A stretch of DNA of 42,427 nucleotides from an uncultured Neisseriales bacterium (GTDB lineage Bacteria > Pseudomonadota > Gammaproteobacteria > Burkholderiales > Aquaspirillaceae), in the NCBI GenBank assembly GCA_937871815.1, contig CALMOJ010000216.1:1-42427 (forward strand), read 5' to 3'. The position numbers and the translations under genes were made by a program. This document shows, piece by piece, positions 34,611 through 38,885 of the stretch; the stretch's first letter is position 1; each line of letters begins with the position of its first letter. The notes beneath the pieces are model-generated. The model saw only the letters and a program-made list of their open reading frames with translations. It had not been told where the DNA came from and ran no database searches.

Positions 34611-34752
34611 AAGCGGTTTACGATCTGCGAGACTCGGGTGATCCTGCGTTGAAATTCGTAAAAACATGCGTGTGGATTCAAATCCAACGGCGTTTTTTTC
34701 CGAATTTCGCCTTGGCAACCCCTGTGCCATTGAGATCGTAAACAGGCTCTAA
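34607..34752 (+). repeat. Dispersed TIR element between convergent genes (copy J)
   Basis: Core 34610-34749 (140 bp), forward oriented and well preserved: TTTACGATCTGCGAGACTCG on the left and TTGAGATCGTAAACAGGCTC on the right. Its left edge provides the TAG stop of the exported protein and its right edge provides, on the minus strand, the TAG stop of apbE. It fills the entire intergenic space. Confidence 0.95.
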
Positions 34753-35660
34753 GCAGGGGGCTGCCCAAACTGGCCATGTGCATCAATCGTCAGATACATC
34801 AACCCCGTCTGCGCCAAGAAGGCCGCCCCATCTGCGGCTTTGAGCATGGCAATCGTGGTGCAACTGCCTGCCGTAATCGACAGCGGGGCCAGCACGCTCA
34901 CCGACTGCCAGTGCGCCACGGGATAGCCGGTGTGCGGGTTGAGAATGTGACAGTACCGCCGTCCCTTATGTTCAAAAAACCGTTCGTAGTCGCCGCTGGT
35001 CGCCAACGCCCCTGAGCTTACGGGGATGGTGGCAATCACCTGCCCCGCCCGACGGGGGTCTTGAATGCCCACCGCCCACGGCGAACCATCGGGCTGCGGG
35101 CCTATCACCCGCATATCGCCGCCCAAATTCACATAGCCTTGGGTCACGCCCACATCCATCAGCACCGCAGCGGCACGGTCGGCGGCGTACTCCTTGCCAA
35201 AGCCGCCGAAGTCCAGCTCCATGCCGGCCTGTGGCAGCCGAATCCGTGCCCCGTCCCGTTCCACCCGCGCCCAGCCAACCAAATCCAGCAAAGGCTTGAG
35301 ACGGCTGGGGCTGGGCACTTTGGCCTGCTTGAAGTTCCACGCCTGCCGCAGCACGCCAGAGGTGATGTCAAATAGCCCATCGCTCATAGCAAACAGCGAA
35401 CCGGCGTAATCCAGCAGCGACACGGTTTCGGCATCGCACAACACCGCACTTTTGCCGCCTGCCGCCGCGTTGATGCGCGACACCACGCTGTCTGGCCGAT
35501 AGCGAGAATAAGCGTGTTCAATCCGCTTCACCTCGGCAATGGCCAAGTCGGCGTAGCGTTGCGCCGCCGCAGCGGTCGGGGCGTTGAGCTTGACCTCGCA
35601 GCGGCTGGCCATCGCTTCAAACGGCGTGTGAAACAGGGTGGCGGGGGCAGCAATCGACAT
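34749..35660 (-). CDS. apbE: FAD:protein FMN transferase (ApbE family)
   Basis: Flavin transferase that attaches FMN from FAD to Ser/Thr of target proteins. The 303-residue product has ASRCEVKL, the Mg/FAD-site GGFGKEYAADRAA, GYVNLGGDMRV, SGDYERFFEHKGRRYCHILNP followed by HTGYP, and the C-terminal SVLAPLSITAGSCTTIAML block. Unlike most ApbE proteins, no lipobox or signal peptide is seen before MSIAAPATLFHTPFEAMASR; no better upstream start is apparent. AAGGG precedes the ATG. It is the last gene of a four-gene minus-strand operon, 11 bp after the DUF3570 gene. The stop codon is set by repeat copy J. Confidence 0.93.
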   Translation of the reverse strand: MSIAAPATLFHTPFEAMASRCEVKLNAPTAAAAQRYADLAIAEVKRIEHAYSRYRPDSVVSRINAAAGGKSAVLCDAETVSLLDYAGSLFAMSDGLFDITSGVLRQAWNFKQAKVPSPSRLKPLLDLVGWARVERDGARIRLPQAGMELDFGGFGKEYAADRAAAVLMDVGVTQGYVNLGGDMRVIGPQPDGSPWAVGIQDPRRAGQVIATIPVSSGALATSGDYERFFEHKGRRYCHILNPHTGYPVAHWQSVSVLAPLSITAGSCTTIAMLKAADGAAFLAQTGLMYLTIDAHGQFGQPPA

Positions 35661-35671
35661 GGTTTCTGCCC

Positions 35672-36829
35672 TTAAAACAGCCGCGATACGCCAAGCTGAA
35701 TCATGCGGGCATCAAACGGCGCGATGTTTTTGCTGCCCGTTCCAAACACCCGCCACGCGCCGTTTTGTTGGTATTGCTCCACCTTCACATCCATCGACCA
35801 GTCTTTATCCAATTGCTTGGCGACTTTTAGCCCATAGGTGAACGCACCAAAAGCCGACAGCCGTTGGTCTTCGGATACGATTCGGCCTGGGGCATAGTCA
35901 GGCGGCAAGACCGGATAGCCCGAGCCATCGGCTTCGACGTAAAACGAGGCCGCACCTTGGGTATGGAAGCGCAGCATCGGGGTCAGCGTCCAGCCCGAAG
36001 CCAAGGGCTGCACGTATTCGGCGGTCAGGGTGTGGGCTTTGACGTGATAGGTGTCGGTGTAATAGCGATAGCTCAGGCGGGTGGTGCCGTCGGTGCTGTC
36101 CAGATGGTGATTCCAGCGGAGCAGCATGGCCGTTTGGTTGCGATTGCGCGGGCGGTTGTCCAGCAGCTTGTAGGGGTCGGAGTAGTAGCCGGTGCCGTGA
36201 ACATAGGTCAGGTTCAGTTGGGCAATGTCGTTAGGCGACAGCACCTGCGTGACCCCCACCATCAGGTCGGTGATGTTTTTGCGCTCGTTAACCACCACTT
36301 TATTGTTTGGGTTGATTTGGTCACTGGTCAGCCCCAGCCCACCGCTAAACGTGGTGTTTTTGTCTTCGCTGGCAAAGCTGCCTTGGGCGGTAATGCCTCG
36401 CGACACATAGTCGGATTCGGTGGAGTAGCTCGCCCCCAGCGCAAATGTGCCCCGTGGCAAATAGCGGGTCACGGTAAAGTCCCCTGCCTTGCGGTGCTCG
36501 TGGATTTTGAATGGGTTGGGTTCGGCGTGGTAAGCCGGTGACGCACCAGACAGCACGTCGGAAACCAGCGAGCCAGCCACTGACCAGTTTTCACCCACAG
36601 GGGCTAAAACGGCCACAGATGGGGCGTGAACCCAGATGCGATTCCAGCCGGGTTGGCTGTCTTTGTAATCAAGGTATTTCAGCGTAATGCTGCCGCGCTC
36701 GGGCTGGGATTCGGCTTGCGCAAGGGGCGCGAGGGGCAGGCATAGGGCGGCGGTCAGCAGCGCCATGCCCAAGGGGGGCAAGGCGGCGGGGGTGGCGGGT
36801 GCAGTAGGGCAAAGGGGGGTCGAAGTCAT
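35672..36829 (-). CDS. DUF3570 family predicted outer-membrane beta-barrel
   Basis: A 385-residue exported protein with a long N-region and hydrophobic signal (LLTAALCLPLAPLAQAES). The mature chain starts RGSITLKYLDYKDSQPGWNRIWVHAP and is built of alternating beta strands with aromatic girdle residues, ending in ARMIQLGVSRLF. The terminal Phe is typical of outer-membrane barrels. Residues 91-97 read DVLSGAS, similar to ApbE flavinylation motifs (D-x-x-[ST]-G-A-[ST]). The family has no established function that I know. It lies between DUF4266 and apbE on the same strand, which suggests a shared redox role. MTSTPLCP was chosen as the start, with AGGACT upstream. Confidence 0.88.
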   Translation of the reverse strand: MTSTPLCPTAPATPAALPPLGMALLTAALCLPLAPLAQAESQPERGSITLKYLDYKDSQPGWNRIWVHAPSVAVLAPVGENWSVAGSLVSDVLSGASPAYHAEPNPFKIHEHRKAGDFTVTRYLPRGTFALGASYSTESDYVSRGITAQGSFASEDKNTTFSGGLGLTSDQINPNNKVVVNERKNITDLMVGVTQVLSPNDIAQLNLTYVHGTGYYSDPYKLLDNRPRNRNQTAMLLRWNHHLDSTDGTTRLSYRYYTDTYHVKAHTLTAEYVQPLASGWTLTPMLRFHTQGAASFYVEADGSGYPVLPPDYAPGRIVSEDQRLSAFGAFTYGLKVAKQLDKDWSMDVKVEQYQQNGAWRVFGTGSKNIAPFDARMIQLGVSRLF

Positions 36830-36885: not shown

Positions 36886-37128
36886 TTAGTTACAGCCACA
36901 GCCGCCGCCGCCCACCCCTGCGCCGCCTGACGCGCCTTCTTTGCTGCCATAGATGTGCTCGGTAAATTTGGCATCGAGCTTATCGCCCTCAAACGTCATT
37001 TCAGGGCGAGCCAACGTACCTTTTTCCCACGGCTGCACGGGCTTCACCAGCCCGCAGCCGGCCAATACCATCAATGCGCTAACCGCCAGTACCGCGCGGC
37101 TGAGTGTGGTTTTGGTGATAAAGCGCAT
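36886..37128 (-). CDS. DUF4266 lipoprotein with Cys-Gly-Cys tail
   Basis: An 80-residue lipoprotein with lipobox LAGC (Cys25). Mature residues are VKPVQPWEKGTLARPEMTFEG, then KFTEHIYGSKEGASGG and the terminal GVGGGGCGCN with Cys77 and Cys79. This matches the DUF4266 family as I know it, with the PWE-G-LA-P-M core and Gly-rich CGC end. The tail could be a redox thiol pair, a metal site or a modification site; this is not established. It lies 2 bp after the TlpA-like gene, whose end contains its AGGAG ribosome site, so the two are tightly co-expressed. Confidence 0.88.
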   Translation of the reverse strand: MRFITKTTLSRAVLAVSALMVLAGCGLVKPVQPWEKGTLARPEMTFEGDKLDAKFTEHIYGSKEGASGGAGVGGGGCGCN

Positions 37129-37130
37129 GA

Positions 37131-37649
37131 TTATTTCGCTCCTAAAGCTTGTTGTAAGGTCTTTTCAAGCTCGGCGCGTTGGCCATCATGAAAGCCGGTG
37201 TGTTCGGAAATGATTTTGCCGTCTCGCCCGACCAAAAAGCTGGTGGGCATCCCTTTGACCGCATACAGCCGTGGAGTCGTGCCTTTGGGGTCAAACGCCA
37301 CGGTAAATTGGGCAGGCGTTTCGGCTAAGAATTTGCTGGCATCGGCGGGCTTGGCATCGAGGTTAATCCCGACAACCTGCAAGCCTTGGGCGCGATACTT
37401 GGCCTGCATCGCATTCATCCACGGAAACGACTGACGGCAAGGCCCACACCACGAAGCCCAAAAATCGACATACACCACTTTGCCTTGGTACTGGCTGAGT
37501 TTGAACGTGCCATCGGCACTGGGCAGCTCAATGGCGGGCGCGACCGTGCCTTTGTCGAGGGCCAAAGCGGGCTGGCTTAGGCTGAGGGCGGCGGCAAGGA
37601 TGGCACTACGGCACAGCAATCGGCTAAGGGGGGTGAGGCGGAAAGACAT
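37131..37649 (-). CDS. TlpA-like periplasmic thioredoxin
   Basis: A 172-residue exported thioredoxin-fold protein with a signal peptide (RSAILAAALSLSQPALALD). The active site is WCGPC with Cys68 and Cys71, inside VVYVDFWASWCGPCRQSFPW. The cis-proline loop is GMPTSFLVGRDGK, and the AhpC/TSA-like insertion GINLDAKPADASKFLAE is present. Likely a periplasmic thiol reductant or oxidant. It heads the operon with DUF4266, DUF3570 and apbE, so the DUF4266 Cys pair is a natural candidate substrate. AAGGAG precedes MSFRLTPL; the longer frame lacks a ribosome site. Confidence 0.92.
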   Translation of the reverse strand: MSFRLTPLSRLLCRSAILAAALSLSQPALALDKGTVAPAIELPSADGTFKLSQYQGKVVYVDFWASWCGPCRQSFPWMNAMQAKYRAQGLQVVGINLDAKPADASKFLAETPAQFTVAFDPKGTTPRLYAVKGMPTSFLVGRDGKIISEHTGFHDGQRAELEKTLQQALGAK

Positions 37650-37879
37650 CGCAATCTCCTTGGAAACATCAGGGCGTGGATTGTAGGGGGAAGCCACGCG
37701 GCGGGCGATAGCCCTATCACAGGTGTGGAATTTCTGCACCAGTGTGGCGCGGATGGCTTAATCCAGTCTTACCGTTGGGAATTTTTGCGGGGGGAAGGGA
37801 GGCGATGGGCCGTGTTTGTCTGGTTGTCACCCGACCTCACCGTAACCGCCCCTCGCCCCCCCCTCACCGTGTCATGCCA

Positions 37880-38737
37880 TTACGCCAAAGCACTCAAGCG
37901 GGTGCGGGTGTTTTGCGTATCAGCGGCCACAGCGATCGAAACCCCTGCCGTCGCTTGGTCACGGTACTGCTTCATCAAATCCAAGATGCGCTTAAACACC
38001 AAGGTCTCGCTCTCGCTCTTGCTGCTGTCGGTGGCGGTGGTGCTGTCGGTGCTGGTTGCAGCTGTACTGGTCGTCTTGCTCGTACTCGCCGTGCTGCTAG
38101 TGCTTTGGGTCTTTTGGTCATAGGTCATCGCCTCGGTACGCGAGACTTTGCCATCCCCATTGGTGTCCGCTGCGTCAAAATTGCTGGCCATTTTGCTGGT
38201 CAGTGCGGCCAGTTTGCTGTCGGTAGTGGTGCTGGCGACTTGGGTGAGCTGGTCTTTGCTCATCCCTGCATCGTTATCGCCATCACGGTCACTATCACGG
38301 GGCGGCGGTGGCGGCATCCCACCGGCTTGACCCCCTGCCTGTGCCATCCGCATCGCGTTGAACTGACTATCCAACTCTGCCGCCATTTTCTTCAGATTGG
38401 ACGACATTTCATCCTTGGTGACTTTGCCATCGCCGTTGGTATCCAGCGCCGACAGCACTTGGTCTGCACTGACGCTGGTGTTGGTGTTGGTGCTGCTGGC
38501 GGTTAGACCGGTGCCGCTGGTGCTGGTACTGGCCGTGGTCGTGCTGCTGGTGCTCGTTTTGCTGCTAAGACCCTGCAAGGCATTGGCAAAGTCTGCCGTA
38601 TCCAGATAGCCCTTATTTTGGGTATCGAGCTTAGAAAACAGGTTTTCCGCCATCTTGCTGGGGTCAAGGCGCGGGGGGCGTGTTGTCTGGTTGAGGGCGC
38701 TAGCGTAGCTGCTGGTGCTGCCGATGCTCATAGCCAT
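37880..38737 (-). CDS. EF-hand calcium-binding protein with Ser/Thr-rich linkers
   Basis: A 285-residue protein with four EF-hand-like loops: DTQNKGYLDTAD (38-49, degenerate), DTNGDGKVTKDE (99-110, canonical), DSDRDGDNDAGM (148-159, degenerate) and DTNGDGKVSRTE (191-202, canonical). Between them are low-complexity Ser/Thr/Ala stretches (60-90 and 210-245). No signal peptide or membrane helix is visible, so it is cytoplasmic or exported by a non-Sec route. MAMSIGSTSSY was chosen as the start, with AAGGAG upstream. It is divergent from the CpxR-like regulator, with three GTAAA boxes in between. Confidence 0.87.
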   Translation of the reverse strand: MAMSIGSTSSYASALNQTTRPPRLDPSKMAENLFSKLDTQNKGYLDTADFANALQGLSSKTSTSSTTTASTSTSGTGLTASSTNTNTSVSADQVLSALDTNGDGKVTKDEMSSNLKKMAAELDSQFNAMRMAQAGGQAGGMPPPPPRDSDRDGDNDAGMSKDQLTQVASTTTDSKLAALTSKMASNFDAADTNGDGKVSRTEAMTYDQKTQSTSSTASTSKTTSTAATSTDSTTATDSSKSESETLVFKRILDLMKQYRDQATAGVSIAVAADTQNTRTRLSALA

Positions 38738-38885
38738 GGTAAAGCTCCTTCTTTGGGGGCGACCGGTTGGGGTCTTGCTGGCAAAAACCGTCAAGGTGAC
38801 GGGGCAGGGCGACGTGCCCATTTTGGGGTGCTTGTGTGATGCCCAGATTTTTGCATAAGCCCCAGAATCGAAAATCAAAGTCCAT

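Follow-up and report, generated by a model that had tools for sequence, protein, structure and literature searches.

The window analysed here (42,427 nucleotides of contig CALMOJ010000216.1, from an uncultured Neisseriales bacterium) carries a DUF3570 gene beside an apbE gene, which raises the question of whether the DUF3570 product is a flavinylated outer-membrane barrel and, if so, where and by which enzyme its flavin would be attached. The open reading frame runs from an ATG at 36829 to a stop at 35672 on the minus strand, encodes an exported protein of 385 residues that ends in Phe385, and matches PF12094 far above the gathering cut-off (E = 9.1e-66; 222.8 bits, cut-off 25). A preliminary description had proposed an FMN attachment motif at residues 91-97. 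These residues do read D-V-L-S-G-A-S, and the coordinates given for them (36538-36558) were one base off, the exact position being 36539-36559 on the minus strand. The strict D-x-x-[ST]-G-A-[ST] pattern occurs here and nowhere else in the six-frame translation of the window (84,850 residues), and residue shuffles of the mature DUF3570 chain yielded the pattern in 0.36% of trials. The apbE gene, correctly described as adjoining, starts 11 bp past the DUF3570 stop and encodes a flavin transferase of 303 residues (34749-35660, minus strand; PF02424, E = 9.6e-78). A Pfam search returned no FMN_bind (PF04205) match in the window DUF3570 protein. NqrC/RnfG-type substrates have the seven-residue acceptor consensus in common with DUF3570 but contain FMN_bind, whereas DUF3570 has none and is a predicted outer-membrane barrel.

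In kind, the hypothesis of a flavinylated DUF3570 protein is correct, but the motif idea is not new, since earlier work had published it for this family and demonstrated flavin attachment at serines of this type (PMC8238504). Méheust et al. (2021) described DUF3570 in clusters with orphan apbE and with two conserved [ST]GA[ST] motifs (PMC8238504). In E. coli co-expression, DUF3570 of Chlorobium luteolum was flavinylated by its cognate neighbouring ApbE, and flavinylation was abolished only with Ser-to-Ala substitutions at both motifs (PMC8238504). The window protein resembles this homologue in its Pfam family, its position beside apbE and its [ST]GA[ST] type of serine site, but it is a single-site protein that carries the core site alone, instead of the two modified sites of C. 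luteolum and the two motifs of the 2021 description. Its core site agrees with the minimal seven-residue acceptor, D-x-x-[S/T]-G-A-[S/T], given in a 2025 review of ApbE (PMC12052999). Within the literature searched, DUF3570 was mentioned solely in PMC8238504, the main text of which makes no mention of a barrel.

We collected DUF3570 proteins from a phylum sample, relatives, 80 named genome loci (chiefly Oxalobacteraceae, other Burkholderiales and Chlorobiaceae) and the phylum of a Chlorobi genome, and assessed conservation in 63 apbE-linked proteins with mutual identity below 70%. Asp91 was present in 61 of the 63 (97%), Ser or Thr94 in 62 and Ala96 in 59, while Gly95, one of the invariant residues of the whole protein, and Ser or Thr97 were found in all; the full consensus was matched by 57. 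Chlorobiaceae copies are ~49% identical to the window protein. Poor conservation of Asp91 or Ser97 beside apbE had been named in advance as grounds for giving up the motif, and these counts point the other way. Together with the flavinylated homologue (PMC8238504), the conservation supports the earlier proposal that D-V-L-S-G-A-S is an ApbE target, FMN and barrel both being predictions for the window protein, and Ser97 is very probably the residue modified. The motif might instead be conserved chiefly because the barrel needs it structurally where strand 3 reaches the top, with the window copy unmodified. Its residues indeed lie at a strand end in the AlphaFold2 (AF2) model, and 14 DUF3570 proteins without adjacent apbE retain Asp (14 of 14) as well as Ser or Thr94, Ala96 and Ser97 at the same place; because the clade without adjacent apbE keeps the Asp and the Ser, part of the conservation may be structural. 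However, Gly95, invariant when linked to apbE, is replaced by Ser, Asn or Ala in 7 of these 14, extra [ST]GA[ST] sites are much more frequent than expected and group next to the core, and a homologue has been shown to be modified (PMC8238504), and we hold a chiefly structural role to be quite improbable.

Seven sampled genomes (G001, G007, G015, G186, G342, G366 and G368) encode DUF3570 with no apbE found beside it, and their ApbEs are all unlike the leaderless subtype described below. The core glycine was lost in six of the seven, where the site reads S-S-A-S, S-N-A-S or T-A-A-S. G015 keeps S-G-A-S despite the lack of an apbE found beside DUF3570, and G001, the locus of which ends near a contig edge, combines a T-A-A-S core with S-G-A-S at a second position. 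Four other genomes (G448-G451) have S-G-A-S and no adjacent apbE, and encode the leaderless ApbE subtype elsewhere. As read from these sequences, the ApbE distribution fits a dedicated enzyme-substrate pair, for which the independent evidence is weak because one deep clade carries nearly all losses (seven phylogenetically independent pairs for apbE loss versus motif loss, ~0.8 of them informative). In this deep clade, which is without the linked ApbE subtype, the glycine is mostly lost, and the barrel, the thioredoxin-like protein and DUF4266, still with CxC at its end, are kept; barrel, lipoprotein and thioredoxin thus appear as a constant core, and the flavin as an addition or a loss on a tree that is unrooted. 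At three loci of the clade without adjacent apbE (L184, L185 and L186), an ApbE of a different type lies 6-12 kb from DUF3570, and in L186 (5231-16165) the intervening stretch encodes small barrel proteins, an HZS_alpha-domain protein and a laminin-G-like protein.

In the window, the two genes belong to a compact operon, kept across relatives, that encodes a TlpA/ResA-like protein, DUF4266, DUF3570 and ApbE. The TlpA/ResA-like gene (37131-37739, minus strand; PF08534, PF00578 and ResA/TlpA models) encodes an exported thioredoxin-fold protein with a WCGPC motif, the true start of which is likely an internal ATG near 37649. DUF4266 (36886-37128, minus strand; PF14086, E = 5.5e-23) is a small lipoprotein with the lipobox LAGC and a C-terminal GCGCN (CxC). 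A seemingly conserved N-terminal segment, EAAVAATK, ahead of many DUF3570 starts was discarded, being an out-of-frame reading of this GCGCN terminus and not part of DUF3570. Four of the five components of the published cluster of DsbD, thioredoxin-like protein, DUF4266, DUF3570 and ApbE (PMC8238504) are therefore adjacent in the window, which differs in its DsbD: none is encoded beside the operon, and the clear DsbD match of the genome is on another contig. A DsbD-like gene was found within the DUF3570 flanks in 35 of 80 relatives, and 316 clusters that are without DsbD have been reported (PMC8238504).

The AF2 model of the window protein, built from a 100-sequence alignment, is a 16-strand barrel with a mean pLDDT of 87.9; the score drops below 50 over a single segment, residues 1-38, and is intermediate in the loop that follows the motif. 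The closest solved structures in VIA-align were BamA, CdiB, FhaC, PelB and OmpG-like barrels (Z ~16-22), and Foldseek also matched the model to outer-membrane barrels; a DUF3570 profile search against PDB sequences returned nothing useful. The export signal, the even strand number and the C-terminal Phe are all consistent with the predicted outer-membrane barrel. The leader (36704-36829) has no basic residue ahead of its hydrophobic core (MTSTPLCPTAPATPAALPPLGMALLTAALCLPLAPLAQA), and most relatives differ in this respect. Strand 3 comprises residues 82-97 in the model, so that the motif closes the strand at its top, which in the usual orientation would be the extracellular side; it lies at a loop boundary, and the earlier concern that it might be buried in the membrane strand was not borne out. 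At the end of the barrel that holds both termini, every turn is 2-5 residues long, whereas the opposite loops measure 2 to 35 residues, with the long ones on the motif side. Outer-membrane proteins have periplasmic termini and short turns on that side, and because these general rules set the orientation, the modelled flavin would likely sit at the extracellular rim. A flavin site in the periplasm or inside the lumen, with electrons passed within the periplasm only, would accord with the known partners, all of them periplasmic, and with the lumen-facing parity that Asp91, Gly95 and Ser97 share on strand 3, and the orientation of the barrel is itself one that we infer. Against such a placement, which we consider rather unlikely, stand the short turns at the termini, as in known outer-membrane barrels, the position of the conserved Trp82, Trp280 and Trp344 at this bottom end, and the location of the extra sites across the barrel, where the loops are long.

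The sites beyond the core are lineage-specific. Among 158 DUF3570 frames (some of them repeats), we counted one [ST]GA[ST] in 60, two in 85, three in 2 and none in 11, and shuffling of the best-endowed proteins gave an expectation of 0.07-0.19; the one-versus-more state changed at least nine times on the tree. In a comparison of 106 proteins, 59 of the 61 extra sites fell in loops L1 and L2 or in the adjoining very top of strand 4 and start of strand 2, the remaining two in loops L4 and L7, and none in the periplasmic turns, whereas composition-matched control motifs gave 3-18 scattered occurrences. Loops tolerate insertions, a general bias in their favour, but the long loops L7 and L8 hold almost no extra sites, and the clustering beside the core site is thus the informative part. 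Loop L2 at the top of the barrel (~residues 98-107; 36508-36538, minus strand) is the second-site position in many relatives, and the window protein is without a second site because it reads AEPNPFK there. Oxalobacteraceae proteins often have PRYHTAVSGAS, with the second site downstream, and in Chlorobi the second site lies upstream or downstream of the core. Three loci of the window's order (L015, L034 and L039) contain long DUF3570 open frames of 912-1002 residues with a D-T-W-S-G-A-[ST] core, and those of L034 and L039 have one extra site. A Chlorobiaceae contig (L109, 1156-9439) carries four closely spaced DUF3570 genes, with one to three [ST]GA[ST] each and a single ApbE at the end.

Canonical ApbEs work in the periplasm (PMC12052999). 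The window ApbE has neither the signal peptide nor the lipobox of canonical exported enzymes; a second ApbE encoded in this genome starts with a leader of the usual lipobox type (LTAC). We searched for leaders by a simple hydropathy scan (not SignalP) that accepted every possible start codon within 60 upstream residues, and detected a possible hydrophobic leader in 10 of 118 DUF3570-linked ApbEs; in 36 of the 118, the domain is preceded by fewer than 10 available residues. The same scan was passed by 127 of 138 DUF4266, 102 of 114 TlpA-like, 140 of 153 DUF3570 and 14 of 23 other ApbE proteins. The linked enzymes of both Proteobacteria and Chlorobi share an N-terminus, F-x-A-M-x-S-x-C-E, that begins a few residues past the initiator, and they read TAGSC[ST]T (TAGSCTT in the window) where other ApbEs mostly have A-D-A-x-S-T, the usual Asp being Gly in 96% of 117 linked enzymes. 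By sequence, the ApbEs linked to DUF3570 form a subtype of their own, almost always without a signal peptide, unlike the rest of the operon. The replaced Asp is a Mg2+ ligand in characterised ApbEs, and the Gly in its place speaks against the window protein being a target. By analogy with a Chlorobi ApbE that worked in a published experiment, the construct of which is described as signal-peptide-truncated (PMC8238504), the change to Gly may leave activity intact. ApbEs both leaderless and with the Asp-to-Gly change occur in the window (34749-35660), in L109, L054 and L026, and at other loci.

We propose that the neighbouring ApbE transfers FMN from FAD to Ser97 of DUF3570, most likely in the cytosol and on the unfolded precursor, since the linked ApbE is without an export signal; the basis for action on an unfolded chain is that a seven-residue linear motif is enough for ApbE (PMC12052999). 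Flavinylation before export is the simplest reading of the sequences and one that we moderately favour. The cytosolic ApbE of Klebsiella pneumoniae that serves fumarate reductase (PMC12052999) is likewise without a signal peptide, but its substrate is a soluble cytosolic enzyme, whereas DUF3570 carries an export signal. If DUF3570 is a true target, the linked ApbE might also enter the periplasm by an unrecognised route and flavinylate there, as canonical systems do. All three partner proteins are exported, canonical ApbEs act in that compartment, and, for a different ApbE, a cytosolic form failed to replace the periplasmic one (PMC12052999). However, no leader is possible in the 36 linked ApbEs with the shortest N-termini, and in both Proteobacteria and Chlorobi the positions of in-frame stops and start sites allow no space for one, so that periplasmic action appears doubtful. 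Under cytosolic flavinylation, the modified precursor would leave the cytosol through Sec, BAM would fold it into the 16-strand barrel, and the flavin would end at the extracellular rim near strands 1-4, as the model topology suggests. Electrons would probably reach the flavin from a DsbD-type protein of the inner membrane, by way of the TlpA-like protein and then DUF4266, the CxC lipoprotein, and might leave it for an acceptor outside the cell, for example ferric iron, both direction and acceptor being putative. The complete scheme, in which a cytosolic ApbE subtype flavinylates the precursor, the flavin travels through Sec and BAM, and one to three clustered surface flavins are fed by thiol carriers without heme, is put forward tentatively.

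Taken alone, the motif adds one more single-site protein to a family already known to be flavinylated. The new elements are two hints from computation, a flavin at the outer rim of the barrel and an attaching enzyme without an export signal, which are the parts that a specialist would expect less; neither is mentioned in the literature searched, although others may have noticed them before. Exported flavoproteins are usually thought to be modified after membrane crossing, which needs exported FAD. If true, flavin attachment before export would depart from this view, and a barrel with flavins on its outer rim would provide a heme-free electron route through the outer membrane.

Proteobacteria and Chlorobi both contain the operon, so that cultured strains can serve to test the two proposals. 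None of the five genomes sampled from the genus or family of the window genome (G398-G402 versus G000) has DUF3570, and the operon may therefore be a recent gain or a case of patchy survival. The EF-hand, two-component, M3 peptidase, carbonic-anhydrase-like and LexA-like genes of the window were rejected as parts of the module, as they were not conserved beside DUF3570 in the 80 loci, with scattered regulator matches as the exception; the EF-hand protein was not found beside DUF3570 elsewhere. In the window, the EF-hand gene (37880-38878) lies upstream of the operon on the same strand and adjoins the divergent two-component pair.
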